Below are positions 40,267-48,609 of a stretch of DNA of 48,888 nt, piece by piece (position 1 is the stretch's first letter; each line of letters opens with the position of its first letter). The translations under genes were made by a program, and so were the position numbers. This DNA comes from Planctomycetaceae bacterium (GTDB lineage: Bacteria > Planctomycetota > Planctomycetia > Pirellulales > Pirellulaceae). The stretch lies in NCBI GenBank assembly GCA_002862205.1, contig PKCN01000269.1, forward strand, positions 1 to 48,888. Reading direction: 5' to 3'. Under the pieces are notes generated by a model. It searched no databases. It was given only the letters and a program-made list of their open reading frames with translations, and was not told the origin of the DNA.

Positions 40267-41085
40267 TCAATCAGGACGCTGGCCGTCCGCCAATTTCTGC
40301 TCAAACCGATTGACAACCGCAGGTAGATCAGCAACCGATTCGATGACTTCGTGTGCTCCCGCTGCCGTCAGAGTTGACGCTGCGGCCTCGCATTTTTCAA
40401 TGCGTTCCTTTTCTGGGAGCGTCTCGAATTGATCCCGGGATAATCCAACGCAATTCCCGGTACGCGTGATGCCAACAGTCCAGCACCCTGCATTACGACC
40501 AGCTTGAATACCAACGGCAGTATCATCCACTTTGACAATGCTGGTCATGGGATAGATATCAAGTCGCATGGCTGCTTCATAAAGCAGAAAGGGAGCGGGA
40601 CGTCCTCTGGGTGCATCTTCTGCGCAAAGCACGCAGTCGGGCGTGTAACCTTGTGGAGTTGCCGCTGCCGAAACGACTTCCATCAACTGTCGCGTGTAAC
40701 CGGTAGAAGATCCGATTTTAAGCCCGCGTGAGCGCAACTCATCGACCGCGTCGGCAACGCCTTCAATCAAATCACAATGTTGATCGAGTGTTTTCAACTG
40801 CAGCGGCAGGAAGTCGGCATACATGGCTTGGATATCAGCATCGCCACACGGTTGACCATACTTAGCCAACCAGGCTTCGGCCACTGCAGGCATCGCAGCA
40901 ATCGTGGCAATGTGATCAAGTTTTGCCATTCCCATTGGTTCGCGTGCTTGCGCGACTGATATCTCCACGCCTCGACCGCGAAAGATCTCCTGAAACACAA
41001 AAGCTGGAGCACGACTACCGTGATCCACCATCGTCCCCGCCCAGTCAAGAACAACGCCACGCATGTATTCATATTTAGCATTCAT
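40267..41085 (-). CDS. phnX: phosphonoacetaldehyde hydrolase (phosphonatase)
   Basis: A 272-residue HAD-superfamily enzyme. It hydrolyses phosphonoacetaldehyde to acetaldehyde and phosphate. The nucleophile Asp14 is in VVLDWAGTMVDHG, and the Schiff-base Lys55 is in MGMAKLDH, spaced as Asp12/Lys53 of Bacillus PhnX. Further HAD motifs are SSTGYTRQLM and VKVDDTAVGIQAG. This Lys separates true phosphonatase from other HAD hydrolases, so the assignment is firm. Its ATG overlaps the stop of the FAD enzyme by one base (TAATG). It is the last gene of the phosphonate operon. Confidence 0.95.
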   Translation of the reverse strand: MNAKYEYMRGVVLDWAGTMVDHGSRAPAFVFQEIFRGRGVEISVAQAREPMGMAKLDHIATIAAMPAVAEAWLAKYGQPCGDADIQAMYADFLPLQLKTLDQHCDLIEGVADAVDELRSRGLKIGSSTGYTRQLMEVVSAAATPQGYTPDCVLCAEDAPRGRPAPFLLYEAAMRLDIYPMTSIVKVDDTAVGIQAGRNAGCWTVGITRTGNCVGLSRDQFETLPEKERIEKCEAAASTLTAAGAHEVIESVADLPAVVNRFEQKLADGQRPD

Positions 41086-42233
41086 TACTTATCACTTTCC
41101 CATCGTTGCCATGCTTGCTCAGCCAAGCCAAAAGACATTGTCATCCCAGCACCACCCGTTCCTACAAACAGATGAACCTTTGGTTCAATCTGCTTTTCGA
41201 ACACCGGCAATGCTCCATGTTTGGCATAAATTCCGTGCCATCGCTGTGTAATTGACCAGTCATCCAATTGAATCACTTTTCTTAGTTCATGCAGAATCAG
41301 ATCATCAATCTCGGTCTTGTCAAAGGGCGAGATATTCTCACCGTACTCGTGTGAATCCCCCAGCACAACTTCGCCACCGGGAAACACAGATGCCATCACA
41401 TGAATTCCATAGTGGTCCAGTAGAGGTGAGTCTTTTTGTATCCGCTCACGCAACTTCTGGTGTGCACGGCAGGATTCAAATGAGGTGTAGTGCCTCAATG
41501 TCAAGCCGCTCGCAATGTGTGGTGTCTTCTCATCAATTCCCTCCTGCGGCACGGTCCTCAGCATTTGCAGCTTGCATAACTTCAAACCCGAGGAAGCAAA
41601 CTCATCGGGGTAAAGCGTTTGCAAATCGCTTCCACTACAGACAATGACCCGATCAGCATTCCACTGTTTTCCATCAGCAGTCGTGATCTGCCCATCCACC
41701 ACACTTGTGACGTGAGTGTTGAAACGACACTCAACCTGGTGCTCTGCAGCCAACCAGTTCGCGATCGAATGACTCGCTGTCCTGGGATCAACTCTCAATT
41801 CCGTCGGACTGTACATGCCACCCAATAGCCCCGTCTGATTCGCCAATCTGGTCCGCTCGGCGATTTGCTGGGCAGTCAGCATGCTGACTTGGTGGGTTTG
41901 CTGTTGGCAGAACTCTTGCAGCACATCCAACTCATCTGGTTGATGCGCCAGATGCAAGGAGCCACAGGCCTCAACAGAGGTAACCCCCTGGGCTCCCAAC
42001 TGCATCCAGAAATCACGTGATTGCAGGGCAATCTGATAGAGATCCCCTGCAGGCTGGCCCACTGGCCAAATCATGCCAAAATTCCTGACAGAAGCTCCTT
42101 CAGCAAGTTGCGTTCTTTCCAGCACCAGAACTGAATGTCCCCGGCTTGCCGCTCGCCAAGCATGAGCAAGTCCGACAATTCCGCCTCCCACAATGGCAAC
42201 GTCGAAGTCTCCGGGCTGATTGTTGCTGGTCAT
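41085..42233 (-). CDS. FAD-dependent amine oxidoreductase of phosphonate clusters
   Basis: A 382-residue DAO-family flavoprotein with the dinucleotide motif VAIVGGGIVGLAHAWRA and the signature ASVRNFGMIWPVGQPAG. The latter I associate with the TIGR03364 clade, found next to phosphonatase genes. Members are reported or proposed to oxidise aminoethylphosphonate or its N-methyl derivative to phosphonoacetaldehyde, feeding PhnX. No PhnW transaminase is present here, so this enzyme probably supplies that step. Its ATG overlaps the HD gene stop (ATGA). Confidence 0.88.
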   Translation of the reverse strand: MTSNNQPGDFDVAIVGGGIVGLAHAWRAASRGHSVLVLERTQLAEGASVRNFGMIWPVGQPAGDLYQIALQSRDFWMQLGAQGVTSVEACGSLHLAHQPDELDVLQEFCQQQTHQVSMLTAQQIAERTRLANQTGLLGGMYSPTELRVDPRTASHSIANWLAAEHQVECRFNTHVTSVVDGQITTADGKQWNADRVIVCSGSDLQTLYPDEFASSGLKLCKLQMLRTVPQEGIDEKTPHIASGLTLRHYTSFESCRAHQKLRERIQKDSPLLDHYGIHVMASVFPGGEVVLGDSHEYGENISPFDKTEIDDLILHELRKVIQLDDWSITQRWHGIYAKHGALPVFEKQIEPKVHLFVGTGGAGMTMSFGLAEQAWQRWESDK

Positions 42234-42784
42234 GAATTCTGCGTCTCCAAAATGTCCCTCATGTAGTCTTTGAAATGCTCAATACTGGGCGTGACCACAC
42301 CCTCTACCTTGGCAAGATCATCCCAACGTCGCAACCGCACGGCATCCCTCCAATATCGCAAACTCTCAAACTCGTTCATCTCGGCCACCGTAAATGGACC
42401 ACCTTGCAAGTGAAGGCTTACCTGCGAAGCCTCGCTCAAACACGCCAGATAGTCATCGTCGGCAGCGCACAGATATCGCTTGGCTGAAACATGCAAGCGC
42501 ACAGGAGTTGCGACCTGGTCACCAAAGGTTGACTCAAGGTACGCTTCCCCCACAGATTCATGCTTGTCATCAACCCCCTGATTCGATGCATTTTCAGGCA
42601 AATCATGAACCAGATGTCCTATATCATGCAATAACGCAGCCACGATCAATAGCGGGGTGGCGTTTTCATTTTCAGCGAGCGTCGCCGCCTGAAGCGCATG
42701 ATCACGCTGTGAAATCAATTCACCTCCATAGAGTGAGTCACCACGCTGGGCAAACAAGCTTACGATGTCCTCAATGATCTTCAT
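42230..42784 (-). CDS. PhnZ-like HD-domain mixed-valent diiron oxygenase
   Basis: A 184-residue HD-domain protein of the phosphonate-linked HD clade. Metal-ligand candidates are His29, His53-Asp54 (LLHDIGHL), His75 and His98. Tyr19 and Glu22 (SLYGGELISQ) keep the Tyr-x-x-Glu spacing of PhnZ Tyr24/Glu27, which in PhnZ guard the iron site and bind the substrate amine. PhnZ cleaves 1-hydroxy-2-aminoethylphosphonate with O2 to glycine and phosphate. Retention of this pair argues for an oxygenase, not a phosphohydrolase. The related TmpB acts on trimethylated substrates, so N-methylated substrates are possible. It overlaps the upstream ADH by 14 bp. Confidence 0.85.
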   Translation of the reverse strand: MKIIEDIVSLFAQRGDSLYGGELISQRDHALQAATLAENENATPLLIVAALLHDIGHLVHDLPENASNQGVDDKHESVGEAYLESTFGDQVATPVRLHVSAKRYLCAADDDYLACLSEASQVSLHLQGGPFTVAEMNEFESLRYWRDAVRLRRWDDLAKVEGVVTPSIEHFKDYMRDILETQNS

Positions 42785-43892
42785 CGCTTACCCCCGGGCG
42801 CACGGCAACCCGGATGGGCCGATGTTTTTCGGCGTATCGAATGGCATGATCGATTTGCTCCAATGAAAACTCGGCTGAGACCAGTTCAGCAAAGGGAAAG
42901 GATTGATGTTGCTCGGTCAGGAACTGTACTGCATCAACAAGATCAGCCGGAGCATAATTGTGAATGCCGTGGATCTGCCAGCATTTCCGAATGACCTGCT
43001 CCGGATTCAGCTTCATGTCATCACACTTCATGACCGATCCAACGAGAACGATTTTGGCACCGATATTCGCAGACTCGATCGCAGCCTCAATGGCATCCAC
43101 TGATCCTGAGAAATCCATCACCACATCAAATCCACTGGGATCGATCTGGCCGTCAGCTCCAAATTGCTGTGCCAGACTCAAACGCTCGGGTGCAGGATCC
43201 GACATCGCCGTCGCATCAGCCCCCCGATATGTTGCCACAGCGGCTGCTGTTAAACCAAGCAAGCCCGCTCCAAGCAACAACACTCGTTTTCCCTCCACTG
43301 AACCAACCGCATTGAATGCAGCCATGACTGTGGCAGTCGCACAATTGGCCGGACAGGCAACATGATCGGGAAGTTCATCGGGCACTTTGATGATCGTCGA
43401 ATCGGGACGCAGTAAAATCGCCTCGGCAAGACCACCACTAAGTGCAAAGCGTCCCTCGGCTCTGCCATGTCCATATTTGTGAAGGTGACGACATTTCTGA
43501 GGCAACCCACCCAGGCATCGGTCACAGCGTCCACAGGACACACAAATGGACCAGGTGATTCGATCTCCTGGCTTCAGCGGATCCCCATGAACATCCACCG
43601 CTGGTTCGTTTGACACTTCCTCCACGACACCCAGAATCTCATGCCCCAGAATCGAAGGACTCGATTCGTTTCTTCTGCCCGCGATCGTGTGTAAATCACT
43701 ACCACACAGAGTGCAACACACTACCCGCACCAACGTCTCACCAGGCTGAAGCTCTGGCCGCGGCAAGAGACAAAACTCCAAGGGACGCTTTGCCTCGTGA
43801 AAAACTGCCGCGAGAACTCCTTCCTCTGAACTCTCTTCCTGTGAAGTCAGAACCGGAGGTAGATCCTGCTCTGGAGTGAACGATTCTTCCAT
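42771..43892 (-). CDS. zinc-dependent alcohol dehydrogenase of phosphonate clusters
   Basis: About 373 residues, MDR superfamily. The catalytic Zn site is in CCTLCGSDLHT and GHEILG. The structural Zn site is CVSCGRCDRC plus a later Cys (GLPQKC), and the Rossmann core is LLLGAGLLGLTAAAVA. GDRITWSICVSCGRCDRC and CPANCATATVMAAFNAVG match, from memory, the TIGR03366 phosphonate-associated clade. It may oxidise hydroxyethylphosphonate to phosphonoacetaldehyde or reduce the acetaldehyde made by PhnX. I chose the ATG at 43892, with a GAAAG-rich site, over a TTG at 43925. It has a ~30-residue polar N-terminal extension. Confidence 0.87.
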   Translation of the reverse strand: MEESFTPEQDLPPVLTSQEESSEEGVLAAVFHEAKRPLEFCLLPRPELQPGETLVRVVCCTLCGSDLHTIAGRRNESSPSILGHEILGVVEEVSNEPAVDVHGDPLKPGDRITWSICVSCGRCDRCLGGLPQKCRHLHKYGHGRAEGRFALSGGLAEAILLRPDSTIIKVPDELPDHVACPANCATATVMAAFNAVGSVEGKRVLLLGAGLLGLTAAAVATYRGADATAMSDPAPERLSLAQQFGADGQIDPSGFDVVMDFSGSVDAIEAAIESANIGAKIVLVGSVMKCDDMKLNPEQVIRKCWQIHGIHNYAPADLVDAVQFLTEQHQSFPFAELVSAEFSLEQIDHAIRYAEKHRPIRVAVRPGVSDEDH

Positions 43893-43985
43893 CTTTTTTC
43901 TTTCAGGCACTTTCAGTTCCGACAAATTGACAAGAATCCCATTTCAACATTGATCGACATTCACCGGTGACGAACATCGCCCCCA

Positions 43986-45338
43986 TCAGTCAAGCGTTTC
44001 TGCGTGATCATTCCCATGCTCGAGCGAATCGACTTTCTGGACAAGCACGCGTTGAAAATACACCAATGCGAGCAGCAAAGCGACGAACGAAAGGACAGCA
44101 ATCACGGCCAGAAGTTGCAGGAAATACGGCAGCACCTCACGGGAATTCCCCACAGAATTGCGGGCAACCAGCACCACACCATACCCGAGGTAACCCAGCG
44201 AATCTGCCACATACAGCAGGAATCCCATGTTGGCGGGTCGGCCCGACGCGGCAACCAACCGCTCAAAGACCGTTGTGTGAAATGCAACGTAGGGCAGATA
44301 GAGGCCAATTCCACAGGCAATCATGAAACCGAGCGGCCCCAACCACCCCAAATATTGCATCCCCGCAGACGCACCAATCAACACAAAGGCGACACACATC
44401 ATCCCGAGCGTGACCCGCAGGGCAGTGAGGTTGTGAGATATCCAGATGGCACCAGCGTTCAAGGCGGTAACACAAATAGCAACGATGAACTCGGACGTTG
44501 CATAACCCCATGGTTCTTCCGTCACCCCCATGTCACGCCAAAGCTCAACGCCAAAGTCATCACGAACCGTACGCAATAATGTGATGCCCATATAAACGAG
44601 AAGGATCAAACAGAAGCCAGGCCAGAAGGCGGTAAAGAAACTCCATCGCGCGGCGCGATCCATGGCCTTTCGTTCTGAACGTTCACGCAAGTCACTGACG
44701 TCAGGCCGAGGTGTCTTCTGCAACACCCAGACGGCAACCAACAGCGGAAGAAGAAACATCAAACCTGTGACCATCGGCATCTGAAACTCATTGACCCCCA
44801 TGTCCTGAATCAACCACTGTCCAATCGACTTGACTGCACCCGAAGACATGATGAAACTTGCGCACAGCACGGCAGACATGGCCTCAGTATGCCTGCGGCC
44901 TTCCAAGTAGGACATCACAAGGCCAAACACCATTCCCAGAGGAAGCCCATTCAAGAACAACATGATCGGTTTCCAGCCCAGGGGAGCAAAAGCAAAACCA
45001 ACCAATGCCAACTCAGCAAATACAATCAGCGCAATGATGGTTCCAGCACGATTGCGTGTCTGCATCTCTGAAACCACTTTGATTCCTATCACTTTGGACA
45101 GCATGTATCCTGTCAATTGCGATATGACCAGCATGGTCTTCAGTCCCAGCACCACCAGTGGCCCACCGGCGATTGTCAAGAAGCCCAGTTCAACAGCAGG
45201 ATAATCTTCGTAGGTTGCTGCGGTGAATGGTTTCCGAAACGCATACATGCAAAAGTAGGTTGAGAATGCAGCAACAGCAGCAATCGCCAAATGCAGCTTC
45301 GAATTCAGATGGGGCGTATTCGGCTTGGACGTCTTCAT
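43986..45338 (-). CDS. DUF5690 family membrane transporter (MFS-like)
   Basis: About 450 residues with 12 predicted membrane helices. YFCMYAFRKPFTAATYEDYP near the start and LNGLPLGMVFGLVMSYLEGR are consistent with DUF5690, an MFS-like family of planctomycetes and Bacteroidetes with no assigned substrate. As the first gene of the phosphonate operon, with no ABC phosphonate transporter nearby, it is a good candidate for uptake of the phosphonate. I chose the ATG at 45338, with GGGAAGTGAAG upstream; an ATG at 45416 would add 26 residues. Confidence 0.8.
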   Translation of the reverse strand: MKTSKPNTPHLNSKLHLAIAAVAAFSTYFCMYAFRKPFTAATYEDYPAVELGFLTIAGGPLVVLGLKTMLVISQLTGYMLSKVIGIKVVSEMQTRNRAGTIIALIVFAELALVGFAFAPLGWKPIMLFLNGLPLGMVFGLVMSYLEGRRHTEAMSAVLCASFIMSSGAVKSIGQWLIQDMGVNEFQMPMVTGLMFLLPLLVAVWVLQKTPRPDVSDLRERSERKAMDRAARWSFFTAFWPGFCLILLVYMGITLLRTVRDDFGVELWRDMGVTEEPWGYATSEFIVAICVTALNAGAIWISHNLTALRVTLGMMCVAFVLIGASAGMQYLGWLGPLGFMIACGIGLYLPYVAFHTTVFERLVAASGRPANMGFLLYVADSLGYLGYGVVLVARNSVGNSREVLPYFLQLLAVIAVLSFVALLLALVYFQRVLVQKVDSLEHGNDHAETLD

Positions 45339-45837
45339 CAAAGCTTCACTTCCCAAAGAGTCAGAAAGAAGTTCAACCGACAGAAACCAGGCATCTGGCC
45401 GCGTTTCATGCACCATTCATACCAACTGGCCGCCCCTGCCGTAACCATCATGCGGCGGAGTTGGCAAAATCTGATGTGGAATGCACCGAAATTCAATTGC
45501 AAACGCCCGCATCGTTTCAATCCAACGGACAACGGCCTGCAGCCCAGCGGAATCTCGAGGAAAAGATTTTTGAGCAATGCTGAATTTCCCACTCAGCTCA
45601 TGAAATATTTTCTTCGCCCAACAAGCTGGGACACCAGCATGTCGAAATGCAAACGATTCCCCTCACAAGTGCATGAACCGGGCACAAAACACAGCAACAG
45701 TTCCTCATAAAAATGAAATGGCTGATACCCCTGTGGCGTTCCTGTCCTGCTCGAAATTCGCTGAGATGTTATGATTCTGCCACTCCAGCGTTTTTCTGGG
45801 GATTCAAGCAGGAAGATAAACAAACAGGTACTGCAAG
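45339..45837. other. 499-bp divergent intergenic region of the phosphonate locus
   Basis: It separates the phosphonate operon (minus) from the exchanger gene (plus) and should carry both promoters. An extended -10 for the rightward gene is visible at 45767-45775. No Pho-box-like 7-bp direct repeats were recognised by eye. Confidence 0.5.
45767..45775 (+). promoter_or_regulatory. candidate promoter of the exchanger gene
   Basis: TGTTATGAT is a good extended -10 (TGn plus TATGAT). A weak -35 (CTGCTC) lies 17 bp upstream. The expected transcript start is ~55 bp before the ATG. Confidence 0.45.
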
Positions 45838-46677
45838 ATGACTGACATGTCGGTCTTGATCATGATCGTCTCAGCGGCCGCGATCATATTTTTCGTCAAA
45901 TTTGGTCTGCTGCGTGGAATTGATAATATCGCCAATGCGATGTCATGGAGTGCGAAATCACGCGGTCAGGTAACCGGGTACGCAACGTCAGTCCCTGAAT
46001 TGGTTTGCCTGGTATCGGCAGGGCTGGCAGGGGTATGGGAAGCAGGCCTTTGGAATATCGCCAGTTCCAACATCATCAACTCCGGGCTGATGCTCTGCGC
46101 TGTCCTGTTTTACCGCCAATTTGGCGAACTGTTGAATGTTCGATTCATCGACGAAATTGGGTTCGCAAGCTTGGCGGTGCTGATCCCCATTTTGCTGATG
46201 CACTTTGGCATGGACCAGCAATGGTACCTCGTCCCCATCCTGCTCGGCTTCTTTGTGATCTATCGCTTTGTCGATCGCAGGATTAACCGGGTATCTCCGG
46301 ATGCGATCAGCGATTCTGAGTCAGAAAAGGCAGCTGTGGGCAGTCTGCCATTTGGAATCATCCTGGGCATCTGTGCGTTGATCGCCATCGCAATCGCGGG
46401 AATATTCCTGGGTGATGCGACCGCCAAAGTGGTTGACCAAATGGGTGTGAGCCCCGAAGTGGCGGGCTGGATCCTTGGTGTCGTAACGAGCATTCCAGAA
46501 CTGGTCAGTTTCTTTGCCATCTATGCAGCCTCCAAACGTGCAGGGAAATCTCATTCCCTCAATGATACCCAGGAAGCCCTCGATAACCTGACAGGTTCCA
46601 ATATGGCGAACGTCAGCATCGTCTACCCGATTGGCCTTGCTGCTTACTTGCTGGCCCAACTGACCATGGGTAGCTGA
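45838..46677 (+). CDS. CaCA-family cation exchanger-like membrane protein
   Basis: 279 residues with about 8-10 membrane segments and two alpha repeats typical of Na+/Ca2+ exchangers. Repeat 1 is GYATSVPELV...SSNIIN (residues ~47-81) and repeat 2 is GVVTSIPELV...GSNMANVS (from ~214). Both keep the TSxPE acidic motif and the SN motif. It is slightly shorter than YrbG-type members (~320). It probably exchanges a cation against Na+ or H+. Its place between the phosphonate operon and the dioxygenase suggests, but does not show, a link to phosphonate use. Confidence 0.85.
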   Translation: MTDMSVLIMIVSAAAIIFFVKFGLLRGIDNIANAMSWSAKSRGQVTGYATSVPELVCLVSAGLAGVWEAGLWNIASSNIINSGLMLCAVLFYRQFGELLNVRFIDEIGFASLAVLIPILLMHFGMDQQWYLVPILLGFFVIYRFVDRRINRVSPDAISDSESEKAAVGSLPFGIILGICALIAIAIAGIFLGDATAKVVDQMGVSPEVAGWILGVVTSIPELVSFFAIYAASKRAGKSHSLNDTQEALDNLTGSNMANVSIVYPIGLAAYLLAQLTMGS

Positions 46678-46834
46678 TTCGGGACATCGCCCTGCGTTCG
46701 ACTTGCGCGAATGGATTCCCAGCCCGCTGGATTTGCACAGCTGATCACAAGCCCGCAGTTGGTCGCTGACAACGTCCACTACGAGACTCCAAATCGCATA
46801 CAATCCAAACTTTCCCCTCTGATGCAGGAATCCC

Positions 46835-47677
46835 ATGTCTGCTTTGTCCGAAACACAAATCAAAGCGTACAACGAGGACGGCTATTTCTTTGCGAGAGGA
46901 CTATTCTCTGCCGAAGAAATCCAGTTGCTGCGTGAAACAGCAACCAATGATCACGCCATGGATCAGGCAGCCTCGCTGAGAGATGACGGTACTGGCGCTA
47001 GCGTACGACTCACGCTGTGGAATCATCCTGGCGATGGCATCTATGGCATGTTCGCCCGCAGTCATCGTGTGGTCGATGCGGTCGAGCAACTGCTCGATGA
47101 CGAAGCGTATCACTACCATTCCAAGATGATTCTGAAAGATGCCAGAGTAGGTGGTGCGTGGGCCTGGCATCAGGACTATGGCTACTGGTACCAGAATGGG
47201 TTGCTATTTCCAAACTTGTGCAGCGTGATGATCGCCGTCGACACAGCAACCGAACAAAATGGCTGCCTCCAAGTGCTACAGGGTTCGCACCACATGGGCA
47301 GAGTGAATCACATCCTGTCGGGTGACCAGGCGGGCGCGGACCAGGAACGTGTTGAGCATGCCAAGGAAGCATTTCCTCTGGTCCACTGCACAATGACTGC
47401 GGGAGACGCCCTCTTTTTTCATCCCAATCTCCTGCATGCCTCTGCTGCCAACCGCTCTGACGATCCGCGTTGGGCATTGATCTGCTGTTACAACGCACGC
47501 AGCAACAACCCGTATAAAGAGTCCCACCATCCGTCTTACACCAAGCTGGACAAGGTAGACGATGAGATGGTCATCCGAGTGGGACAAAACGACGCGCAAC
47601 GTGCTCGAGTTGACTTTGCCAACCTTGACTCGGATGATCGCAGTGCCACCAGCTTGTCCGATGACCCAAATCAGTAG
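46835..47677 (+). CDS. PhyH-type Fe(II)/2-oxoglutarate dioxygenase
   Basis: A 280-residue phytanoyl-CoA dioxygenase-family enzyme. The Fe ligands are His112 and Asp114 (AWAWHQDYGYWYQNG) and the distal His201 (PNLLHASAANRS); Arg207 is the likely 2-oxoglutarate anchor. PhnY, which hydroxylates 2-aminoethylphosphonate at C1 for PhnZ, belongs to this family, and a PhnZ-like gene lies 4 kb away. That makes a PhnY-like role plausible; ectoine-hydroxylase-like or other small-molecule hydroxylases are equally possible by sequence alone. The ATG has AGGA at good spacing. Confidence 0.83.
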   Translation: MSALSETQIKAYNEDGYFFARGLFSAEEIQLLRETATNDHAMDQAASLRDDGTGASVRLTLWNHPGDGIYGMFARSHRVVDAVEQLLDDEAYHYHSKMILKDARVGGAWAWHQDYGYWYQNGLLFPNLCSVMIAVDTATEQNGCLQVLQGSHHMGRVNHILSGDQAGADQERVEHAKEAFPLVHCTMTAGDALFFHPNLLHASAANRSDDPRWALICCYNARSNNPYKESHHPSYTKLDKVDDEMVIRVGQNDAQRARVDFANLDSDDRSATSLSDDPNQ

Positions 47678-47691
47678 GGCAGGAAACCCAA

Positions 47692-47716
47692 GCCTGCCTT
47701 GTCAGGCCAGATTTTT
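47692..47716 (+). terminator. possible intrinsic terminator after the dioxygenase
   Basis: GCCTG and CAGGC form a 5-bp stem with a 6-nt loop, followed by CAGATTTTT. An overlapping alternative stem (GGCAGG at 47678-47683 with CCTGCC at 47693-47698) precedes it. The stem is short, so confidence is modest. Confidence 0.4.
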
Positions 47717-47784
47717 CGTTCACTGCCACAGGCAGCCTCTGGCAGCAGCCTTGTACCCTCTCCCATTTGAAAGCGGGATCCACC

Positions 47785-48609
47785 ATGAAACTCGGAATCA
47801 TCAATAGTGCATTCCAACAGGCGGGCATCAACACACAAACCGGGTTGGAGCACATTGCACGAATTGGTTTCGATTGTGTCGACATCTTCACCGAAGCGAT
47901 GACGATTCCGCAGGAAGAGATCGACCTGATCCGCCGCACTTGCGACGAGAACGATCTACCGATCGTATCGACAGTCGTCGTTTCGGCTGGGCTTATCGAC
48001 TTCAATGATCCCGTTCGTGAGTTCCATATGCAGCGAACACGCAAGTTTCTGGAGCTTGCGAAGACATTCCAGTCGGACAATCTTTTGCTGGTGATTGGCG
48101 AATACATCTGGCAGCGCGAAGTCATTCCCCCCGAGGCACAGTGGGAATGGGGAGTGGAATGTGTACGGGAACTGGGGATCGATGCAGGTGAAAAAGACAT
48201 CGATATCGCTTTGGAACTCGAACCCTTCCGGTTAAGCCTGCTCAACAGTGTGCCCGAGATGGTCCGGTTCATTGATGACGTTGGCTTGCCAAACGTCAAA
48301 GCAAACATTGATATCAGCCATCTTGTGCTTTCCGACACGTCACCAGGTGACCTGGAAGCATTCCGCGGCAAAGCCACCCACGTGCACATCAGTGATTGCG
48401 ACGGCAAGGTACATGGTGACCTGCCACCGGGTCGCGGTGTCGTGAAATTTGCGCCGTTTCTGCAGGCAATCAAGGACCTTGATTTTGATGGAGCGATTTC
48501 CCTGGAACTCGAATACTCGCCAGACCCCGCCAAGATCGTGGAATGGGTCGAGGAGGCCTATCACGCGACCGCCAAACTGATGGAACAGGTGGAACTGCGC
48601 AGTCGCTAA
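47785..48609 (+). CDS. sugar-phosphate isomerase/epimerase-like TIM barrel protein
   Basis: About 274 residues of the xylose-isomerase-like (AP endonuclease 2) TIM-barrel superfamily. Metal-ligand candidates are Glu in ALELEPF, Asp in ANIDISHL, His/Asp in VHISDCDG and the final Glu in ISLELEYS. It probably isomerises or epimerises a sugar or cyclitol derivative; it is followed by a Gfo/Idh gene, a common pairing in inositol- or oxo-sugar metabolism. The ATG at 47785 (MKLGIINSAF) fits the family start; an upstream TTG at 47767 does not. Confidence 0.87.
   Translation: MKLGIINSAFQQAGINTQTGLEHIARIGFDCVDIFTEAMTIPQEEIDLIRRTCDENDLPIVSTVVVSAGLIDFNDPVREFHMQRTRKFLELAKTFQSDNLLLVIGEYIWQREVIPPEAQWEWGVECVRELGIDAGEKDIDIALELEPFRLSLLNSVPEMVRFIDDVGLPNVKANIDISHLVLSDTSPGDLEAFRGKATHVHISDCDGKVHGDLPPGRGVVKFAPFLQAIKDLDFDGAISLELEYSPDPAKIVEWVEEAYHATAKLMEQVELRSR

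Follow-up and report, generated by a model that had tools for sequence, protein, structure and literature searches.

Why should a single string of genes encode two enzymes that break the carbon-phosphorus (C-P) bond, one by hydrolysis and one by oxidation? The question is raised by contig PKCN01000269.1 of a Planctomycetaceae bacterium (assembly GCA_002862205.1; the window below is the whole stretch of 48,888 nucleotides that was analysed), in which five co-directional genes on the minus strand (45416-40267) encode a membrane protein of family DUF5690, a TIGR03366 alcohol dehydrogenase (ADH), a TIGR03276 HD-domain oxygenase resembling PhnZ and TmpB, a TIGR03364 flavin adenine dinucleotide (FAD) amine oxidase and the phosphonoacetaldehyde hydrolase PhnX. 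An initial annotation had recognised PhnX and the PhnZ-like HD protein in one operon-like string, and all five genes are found where it placed them. We think it probable that they form an operon for the salvage of aminophosphonates, with two branches of C-P cleavage acting on different substrates, all of which we infer.

The pairing of hydrolytic and oxidative cleavage is already known in print, and the surprise at it that the initial annotation implied is not supported. Co-clustering was tabulated in 2021, with PhnZ homologues in 15 of 1,186 phnWX clusters and 24 of 75 phnWAY clusters, never together with PbfA (PMC8154272), and a cluster with PhnX, HpnW and PhnHD was described in Achromobacter in 2024, the roles of HpnW and PhnHD being left open there (PMC11203657). 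Co-occurrence of phnZ with phnA or phnX reaches 30-50% in marine genomes (PMC9381506), and phosphonate pathways are reviewed in PMC10574752. The Achromobacter cluster (phnX, phnSTU, hpnW, lysR, phnHD) resembles the window in its PhnX, its TIGR03364 FAD oxidase substituting for PhnW and its TIGR03276 HD protein; it differs in having phnSTU and LysR where the window has DUF5690, in a phnHD gene that lies close to the transcribed string and outside it, and, as far as the accessible text goes, in the absence of any mention of a TIGR03366 dehydrogenase (PMC11203657). Searches of open-licence papers did not turn up the planctomycete version, in which the five genes include those for DUF5690 and TIGR03366.

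Gene layout and catalytic residues

All four enzyme families (PhnX, HD, FAD and ADH) exceed the cut-offs of their curated models. The initial annotation described the genes as overlapping, which is true of the four enzymes (14 bases between the ADH and HD genes, 4 between HD and FAD, 1 between FAD and PhnX) but not of the transporter, the end of which is separated from the downstream ADH start by a gap of 60 bases. The longest open reading frame (ORF) of the transporter starts at 45416, position 45338, where the initial annotation placed the end of the string, being its second in-frame ATG and an alternative start, and the listed ADH frame begins at a TTG with an in-frame ATG 33 bases downstream. 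A promoter and terminator scan of the locus returned signals at or below shuffled expectation and is uninformative on co-transcription.

The PhnX protein (40267..41085; 339.1 bits with TIGR01422, cut-off 220) aligns over residues 9-263 without gaps to residues 7-261 of the Bacillus cereus chain. The alignment bears out the Asp14 and Lys55 named in the initial annotation: Asp14, Lys55 and His58 correspond to Asp12, Lys53 and His56, the catalytic Asp, Lys and His of the Bacillus enzyme, the roles of Asp12 and Lys53 being described in PMC11203657. The classical motif IV GDxxxD (Gly185, Asp186 and Asp190 in B. cereus) is replaced by DDxxxG. Among 60 planctomycete PhnX loci, 35 (window included) read DDxxxG, 25 read GDxxxD and none is intermediate, and on a tree of 59 PhnX proteins (the partial PhnX of locus L079 was omitted) the switch amounts to one change, supported at 96 by the Shimodaira-Hasegawa-like approximate likelihood ratio test (SH-aLRT), the only support measure used for our trees, all of which are quick builds. 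Both DD and GDxxxD are listed as forms of motif IV in HAD proteins (PMC12715507), and the acidic residue of the motif appears to have been relocated rather than lost; the DDxxxG form of PhnX is best read as a variant and not as a defining loss. Residue-by-residue comparison would misread this subgroup, with its switched metal motif, as carrying two separate faults.

The Achromobacter PhnX shares Cys22Ser, Gly185Asp and Asp190Gly with the window protein, and its two motif IV changes are reported as known activity-lowering substitutions; the enzyme hydrolyses phosphonoacetaldehyde, clearly less efficiently than that of Bacillus (PMC11203657), and this lower efficiency argues against regarding the switch as neutral. 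That all four Achromobacter changes are shared is ruled out by the alignment, in which Thr126 is kept here. The FAD gene adjoins PhnX at 28 of 35 DDxxxG loci versus 10 of 25 GDxxxD loci, and PhnW at 2 of 35 versus 16 of 25; these counts suggest that the switch tracks the FAD gene, yet a switch that happened once on the tree offers one independent comparison and no statistical support, and we rejected the association. The switch from GDxxxD to DDxxxG itself is possibly new.

The HD protein (42230..42784; 221.2 bits, cut-off 214.6) was aligned with PhnZ and TmpB. All six metal ligands are present (His29, His53-Asp54, His75, His98 and Asp155), Tyr19 and Glu22 align with the YxxE loop of both references, and His57 is also aligned, which agrees with the Tyr19/Glu22 pair and the HD metal set given in the initial annotation. 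The predicted structure has a mean predicted local distance difference test (pLDDT) score of 93.9; Foldseek returned ten PDB matches for it at E<=0.001, every one a TmpB or PhnZ chain, and the next row was a hydrolase at E 0.012. These results bear on the reading in which the HD protein is a phosphohydrolase, or a scavenger of side products, that sits by chance in a phosphonate operon. Most known HD proteins are indeed phosphohydrolases (PMC8177086), and the metal motif H...HD...H...H...D is no proof of an oxygenase since some phosphohydrolases share it (PMC11203657), but in the window it is joined by the YxxE loop, and no phosphohydrolase appears among the Foldseek matches at E<=0.001; we regard this reading as very improbable.

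An alignment and tree of the family contained 78 HD proteins (from 79 fetched loci and the window, less the interrupted L103 of 117 residues and the partial L140) together with PhnZ and TmpB as references. All 80 rows conserve the six metal ligands; Tyr19 and Glu22 are conserved in 79. A group of 59 rows (support 89), to which neither PhnZ nor TmpB belongs, takes in the 35 PhnX-linked HD proteins; that these form a single clade is ruled out by nine label changes on the tree. Six HD genes linked to PhyH form one group (support 88) nested in a 12-row group (support 96). In these labels L099 was placed by hand with the PhyH-linked rows on a 57-bit match, and L131 and L132 were counted as other despite a PhyH-cluster ORF beside HD. 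L086, the sole member of the PhyH-linked group tested, scores 372.8 bits as a hydroxymethylphosphonate dioxygenase (cut-off 300), and the hydroxylases adjoining L086 and L098 score 497.5 (just below the cut-off of 500, in a trimmed frame) and 558.7 bits, respectively. No PhyH gene adjoins any of the 35 HD genes linked to PhnX at the thresholds used.

On the tree the window HD protein is separate from PhnZ, from TmpB and from the GmPhnZ-like rows, and it scores below the cut-off of the TmpB equivalog (NF049941, 169.5 of 300 bits); its group may be new, having no characterised member among the references used (PhnZ and TmpB). Its substrate could be another compound with a C1 hydroxyl, such as hydroxymethylphosphonate or a glyphosate-related compound as raised for Achromobacter. 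GmPhnZ cleaves both hydroxymethylphosphonate and (R)-1-hydroxy-2-aminoethylphosphonate (R-HAEP) (PMC10574752), and glyphosate induces the Achromobacter phosphonatase (PMC11203657), but the window protein reaches 157.9 of 300 bits with the model for the GmPhnZ1 hydroxymethylphosphonate dioxygenase (NF052439) and lies outside that group on the tree, and we hold such a substrate to be quite unlikely. As a separate observation, the HD gene of L103 (genome G339) is broken by a stop and looks like a decaying copy, and the PhnX gene of the same genome lies elsewhere.

Recurrence among planctomycetes

In a sample of 392 genomes of the phylum, HD is present in 37 (23 above cut-off), PhnX in 37 (all above), FAD in 36 (35 above) and ADH in 26 (23 above). 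Of these genomes, 27 contain both HD and PhnX (Fisher p 2.4e-25, a value that overstates the independent evidence as the genomes are related), and 18 contain all four families. Within 8 kb of 43 HD loci we found PhnX 15 times, FAD 16 times and ADH 14 times. Of 100 genomes from the family to which the window belongs, 41 have HD, among them all three that were sampled from the window's genus.

Conservation of the five-gene order in other planctomycetes had been proposed as a check by the initial annotation, and the order does recur: transporter-ADH-HD-FAD-PhnX, exactly and on one strand, is found at 12 of 115 loci, a set made up of the window and of loci retrieved through HD (79), PhnX (25) and ADH (10). 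The 12 loci, window included, span eight genera and two families; L119, where a contig end cuts the transporter, was excluded from the count. Because the four families co-occur and the order recurs, we consider the pairing to be more than chance. The same genes are arranged divergently elsewhere (for example at L079, L114 and L115), and nine loci of one genus have a second form, namely FAD, GlpT-like permease, HD, PhnX, PhnW and ADH. In the planctomycete genus g113 (L087, L089, L093, L095 and L097) HD lies near two conserved gene families, c23 and c27, with no PhnX, FAD or ADH seen nearby; the one protein scored, c27 of L087, proved to be a histidine kinase with best matches to PnpS and PhoR-like models, both below the cut-offs.

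Proposed substrates of the two branches

In the scheme that we consider probable, the DUF5690 permease would import aminoethylphosphonates. The FAD oxidase, replacing PhnW, would then act as the characterised PbfD enzymes do, converting N-methyl-2-aminoethylphosphonate (M1AEP) or 2-aminoethylphosphonate (AEP) to phosphonoacetaldehyde with release of methylamine or ammonia and of H2O2, and PhnX, judging from its family and catalytic residues, would split phosphonoacetaldehyde into acetaldehyde and phosphate. In the other branch the HD protein, as a PhnZ-like mixed-valent di-iron oxygenase, would convert imported R-HAEP, possibly N-methylated, to glycine and phosphate, and would so fill the place held in other bacteria by the lyase PbfA. 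The weakest step is that of the zinc dehydrogenase, which might supply phosphonoacetaldehyde from a phosphonate alcohol (2-hydroxyethylphosphonate, for example) or might remove acetaldehyde.

A separate HD branch makes sense because PhnW and PhnX do not deal properly with R-HAEP (PMC8154272); together with the activity of PbfD enzymes on M1AEP and AEP (PMC10590968) this supports the branched system for several related aminophosphonates that the initial annotation had suggested. The phnWX-pbfA clusters are comparable in that an ancillary enzyme for R-HAEP is attached to the phosphonatase route, and different in that PbfA is a non-oxidative pyridoxal phosphate lyase there and no PbfA is found here (PMC8154272).

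The assignment of the FAD protein (41085..42233; 435.2 bits, cut-off 285.1) as a PbfD-type oxidase, also named HpnW, draws on its model score and a tree; a PDB sequence search with it at E<=1e-10 gave no match. Nine PhnW-linked rows group apart on the FAD tree of 60 rows, and that join is flagged as a long branch with L255. The context is like that of the PbfD2 subgroup, most of which lacks PhnW, as the window genome and cluster hold phnX with no PhnW above cut-off. PbfD enzymes convert M1AEP and AEP to phosphonoacetaldehyde also where PhnW is absent, their genes are found in planctomycete clusters, and PbfD2 of the planctomycete Mariniblastus fucicola oxidises both compounds and accompanies phnX without phnW (PMC10590968). 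The M. fucicola pathway has in common with the window a planctomycete host, the lack of PhnW and, in our scheme, an FAD oxidase that feeds PhnX; an HD oxygenase, a dehydrogenase and DUF5690 are not discussed in the part of that report available to us (PMC10590968).

The dehydrogenase (42771..43925; HpnZ, 376.6 bits, cut-off 328.1) matches zinc alcohol dehydrogenase structures. Among the open-licence papers searched, none names TIGR03366 and one names TIGR03276. We lean towards a phosphonate alcohol as its substrate because stand-alone ADH genes lie near DUF5690 at six of nine loci, removal of acetaldehyde being nearly as likely. An assignment as the HAEP racemase PbfF was ruled out, the window protein being ADH_N/ADH_zinc_N and PbfF being pfam02826 (PMC12366243).

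The genome as a whole (98.7% complete, 451 contigs) contains a single HD gene. No PhnW (best 128.8 of 400.8 bits) and no methylphosphonate-type PhnY (best 58.9 of 500) were found in it above cut-off, the candidate for PhnW being rejected on that ground; PbfA was not found either (best 249.6 of 525), the candidate being below cut-off and identifiable as BioA, and neither was PhnJ. The genome therefore keeps its only HD gene in a phosphonatase operon without a recognisable PhnW, PbfA, PhnJ or methylphosphonate-type PhnY, which makes it a direct test of the purpose of the oxygenase. The systems PhnY*/PhnZ, TmpA/TmpB and GmPhnY/GmPhnZ share the HD oxygenase fold, the metal ligands and the YxxE loop with the window and differ from it in their hydroxylase partner, as the operon has no hydroxylase gene. 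Because a hydroxylase leading from AEP to the HD protein is not recognised in the genome, the HD branch more likely serves an imported hydroxylated phosphonate than competes for AEP, and it is doubtful whether in this genome the two enzymes are alternative end points for AEP, as the initial annotation had it.

The HD protein could nevertheless be the later-acting partner in a PhnY*/PhnZ or TmpA/TmpB pair, with the hydroxylase encoded elsewhere and AEP split between the branches. The obvious candidate is a PhyH gene (46835-47677) that lies on the opposite strand at a distance of 1.4 kb and keeps its position in two congeners; a 29-30% identical PhyH lies about 4 kb beyond PhnX, also on the other strand, at L117 and L120 of another genus, and the genome holds further PhyH and two TauD proteins. 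The candidate scores better as an ectoine hydroxylase (73.2 bits) than as a methylphosphonate hydroxylase (56.0 of 500), its gene is divergent and stands behind an exchanger gene, not beside HD, and no PhyH occurs in the stretch fetched for 7 of the 11 other five-gene-order loci (the stretch of L106 ends just after PhnX). We keep this pair as a rival and not as the leading idea, and rate it unlikely.

The retained Glu22 bears on the chemical nature of the substrate. The equivalent Glu in PhnZ and TmpB is within reach of the substrate amino group (PMC8177086), and since it contacts the amine there, the presence of Glu22 fits an amino substrate without proving one. It is not decisive because the GmPhnZ-like L086 keeps the same residues. 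In a scan of named relatives (the best 80 of at least 250 confirmed), Glu22 is retained in 69 of 80; the other 11 have Ser, Ala, His or Thr at this position, and one protein has Glu for the last Asp. The 11 proteins lacking Glu22 (L239, L243, L244, L251, L252, L254, L256, L258, L261, L285 and L286) are alphaproteobacterial in 10 cases by record title, and most read YGLS instead of YxxE, a pattern which hints at another substrate for them.

The same scan extends the comparison beyond planctomycetes. The named and unnamed samples are partly the same DNA (L306 is L089, and L236 overlaps L113), so that their counts are not independent, and the neighbour search used planctomycete queries, with PhnA and the phnWAY dehydrogenase outside its range, so that absence in distant phyla is weak evidence. 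FAD and PhnX lie in the stretch with HD at 10 of 80 named loci, seven from Planctomycetota and three from Pseudomonadota, the latter with FAD and PhnX some kb off on the other strand. At eight further loci out of the 80, HD is accompanied by FAD and a TIGR03351-like relative of PhnX: five are from Bacteroidota, one from a cyanobacterium, one from a planctomycete and one from a metagenome-assembled genome classed with Pseudomonadota, in which the genes follow the order seen at L257 and L262, two of the Bacteroidota loci. Six of ten neighbour proteins scored matched TIGR03351, one above the cut-off of 218.9 (220.2 bits) and five at 168.6 to 214.0 bits. Such FAD-HD-PhnX-like groups in Bacteroidota and a cyanobacterium are possibly new.

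These eight loci bring up a serial arrangement, in which the FAD oxidase would deaminate R-HAEP to 1-hydroxy-phosphonoacetaldehyde, which resists PhnX, the HD protein would cleave this aldehyde oxidatively to glyoxylate and phosphate, and PhnX would serve as the outlet of the branch without the hydroxyl. FAD and HD lie near each other at the eight loci, mostly from Bacteroidota, and no PhnX above cut-off was found in the eight genomes, the completeness of which is unstated; in addition, a note on TIGR03364 quoted in PMC10590968 proposed 1-hydroxy-AEP as substrate, and PhnW turns some R-HAEP into an aldehyde not used by PhnX (PMC8154272). The TIGR03351-like proteins at these loci may, on the other hand, do the work of PhnX, activity of PbfD enzymes on M1AEP and AEP has been demonstrated (PMC10590968), and Glu22 fits a substrate that still bears its amine (PMC8177086). 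We find the serial order unlikely. If it were true, C-P hydrolysis and C-P oxygenation would be sorted by the C1 hydroxyl on the aldehyde, and it is with little confidence that we extend it to the broader proposal that FAD, HD and PhnX or its relative form one functional unit in several phyla, often served by DUF5690, with HD acting after FAD on 1-hydroxy-phosphonoacetaldehyde.

Several observations weigh against the operon with two branches for different substrates, which we continue to prefer. R-HAEP as the substrate of the HD protein is carried over from PhnZ and TmpB, relatives at 34-38% identity that lie outside the window HD group, and L086, with the residues it shares with the window protein, belongs to a family that prefers another substrate. 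The genome contains six PhyH-family matches below the PhnY cut-off, a cut-off that belongs to the methylphosphonate-type model only, and its two TauD-family proteins match no NCBIfam model; an AEP hydroxylase or a TmpA-like one among them is possible. The lower efficiency of the Achromobacter PhnX with the same motif IV (PMC11203657) tells in the same direction. Finally, 28 of the 78 aligned HD proteins are without any sought partner nearby and no sought partner was seen at 33 of 45 Pseudomonadota HD loci: the link between HD and its partners is frequent, not obligatory.

The predicted permease and the flanking genes

The first gene of the string (43986..45416, minus strand; 424.7 bits to PF18943) encodes a membrane protein with a predicted major facilitator fold (mean pLDDT 86.7). 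Copies of DUF5690 are found near 52 of 113 planctomycete loci holding HD, PhnX, FAD or ADH, the count being of copies near loci; they lie near 5 of 11 PhnX-only and 6 of 9 ADH-only loci, but near 9 of 40 HD-only loci. In nine PhnW-type clusters a GlpT-like permease occupies the DUF5690 slot.

A PDB sequence search with DUF5690 at E<=0.1 gave no match. The 50 PDB rows listed by Foldseek for the model are transporters of the major facilitator superfamily (MFS) as far as their titles tell, with GlpT (1pw4) at rank 46. The template modelling (TM) score, by target length, is 0.71 with the glucose-6-phosphate exchanger and 0.73 with MCT2; because carriers of compounds other than phosphates match as well as this, the substrate cannot be read from the fold alone. 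Arg35 and Arg256 are invariant in 18 DUF5690 rows, and hhalign places them on Arg residues of GlpT-like rows with a probability of 56%, which is weak; the GlpT-like rows align in turn with GlpT. The Arg residues aligned with Arg35 and Arg256 are ones that we take to be the phosphate-binding arginines of GlpT in helices 1 and 7.

From these neighbourhoods and models DUF5690 looks like a GlpT-related phosphonate permease family, possibly a new one, and no paper on it was found among the open-licence literature. As a likely new permease family, it could be used to trace phosphonate use in planctomycetes and Bacteroidota. The nearest known counterpart is AepP, a GlpT-related AEP permease that is likewise an MFS protein beside phosphonate genes; DUF5690 differs in being a separately named family, at best a distant relative, and a predicted transporter (PMC8316502).

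Upstream of the operon and divergent from it, genes for a Na/Ca exchanger, the PhyH protein and a TIM-barrel protein lie at 45838-48609, a position that is kept in the congeners L112 and L118.

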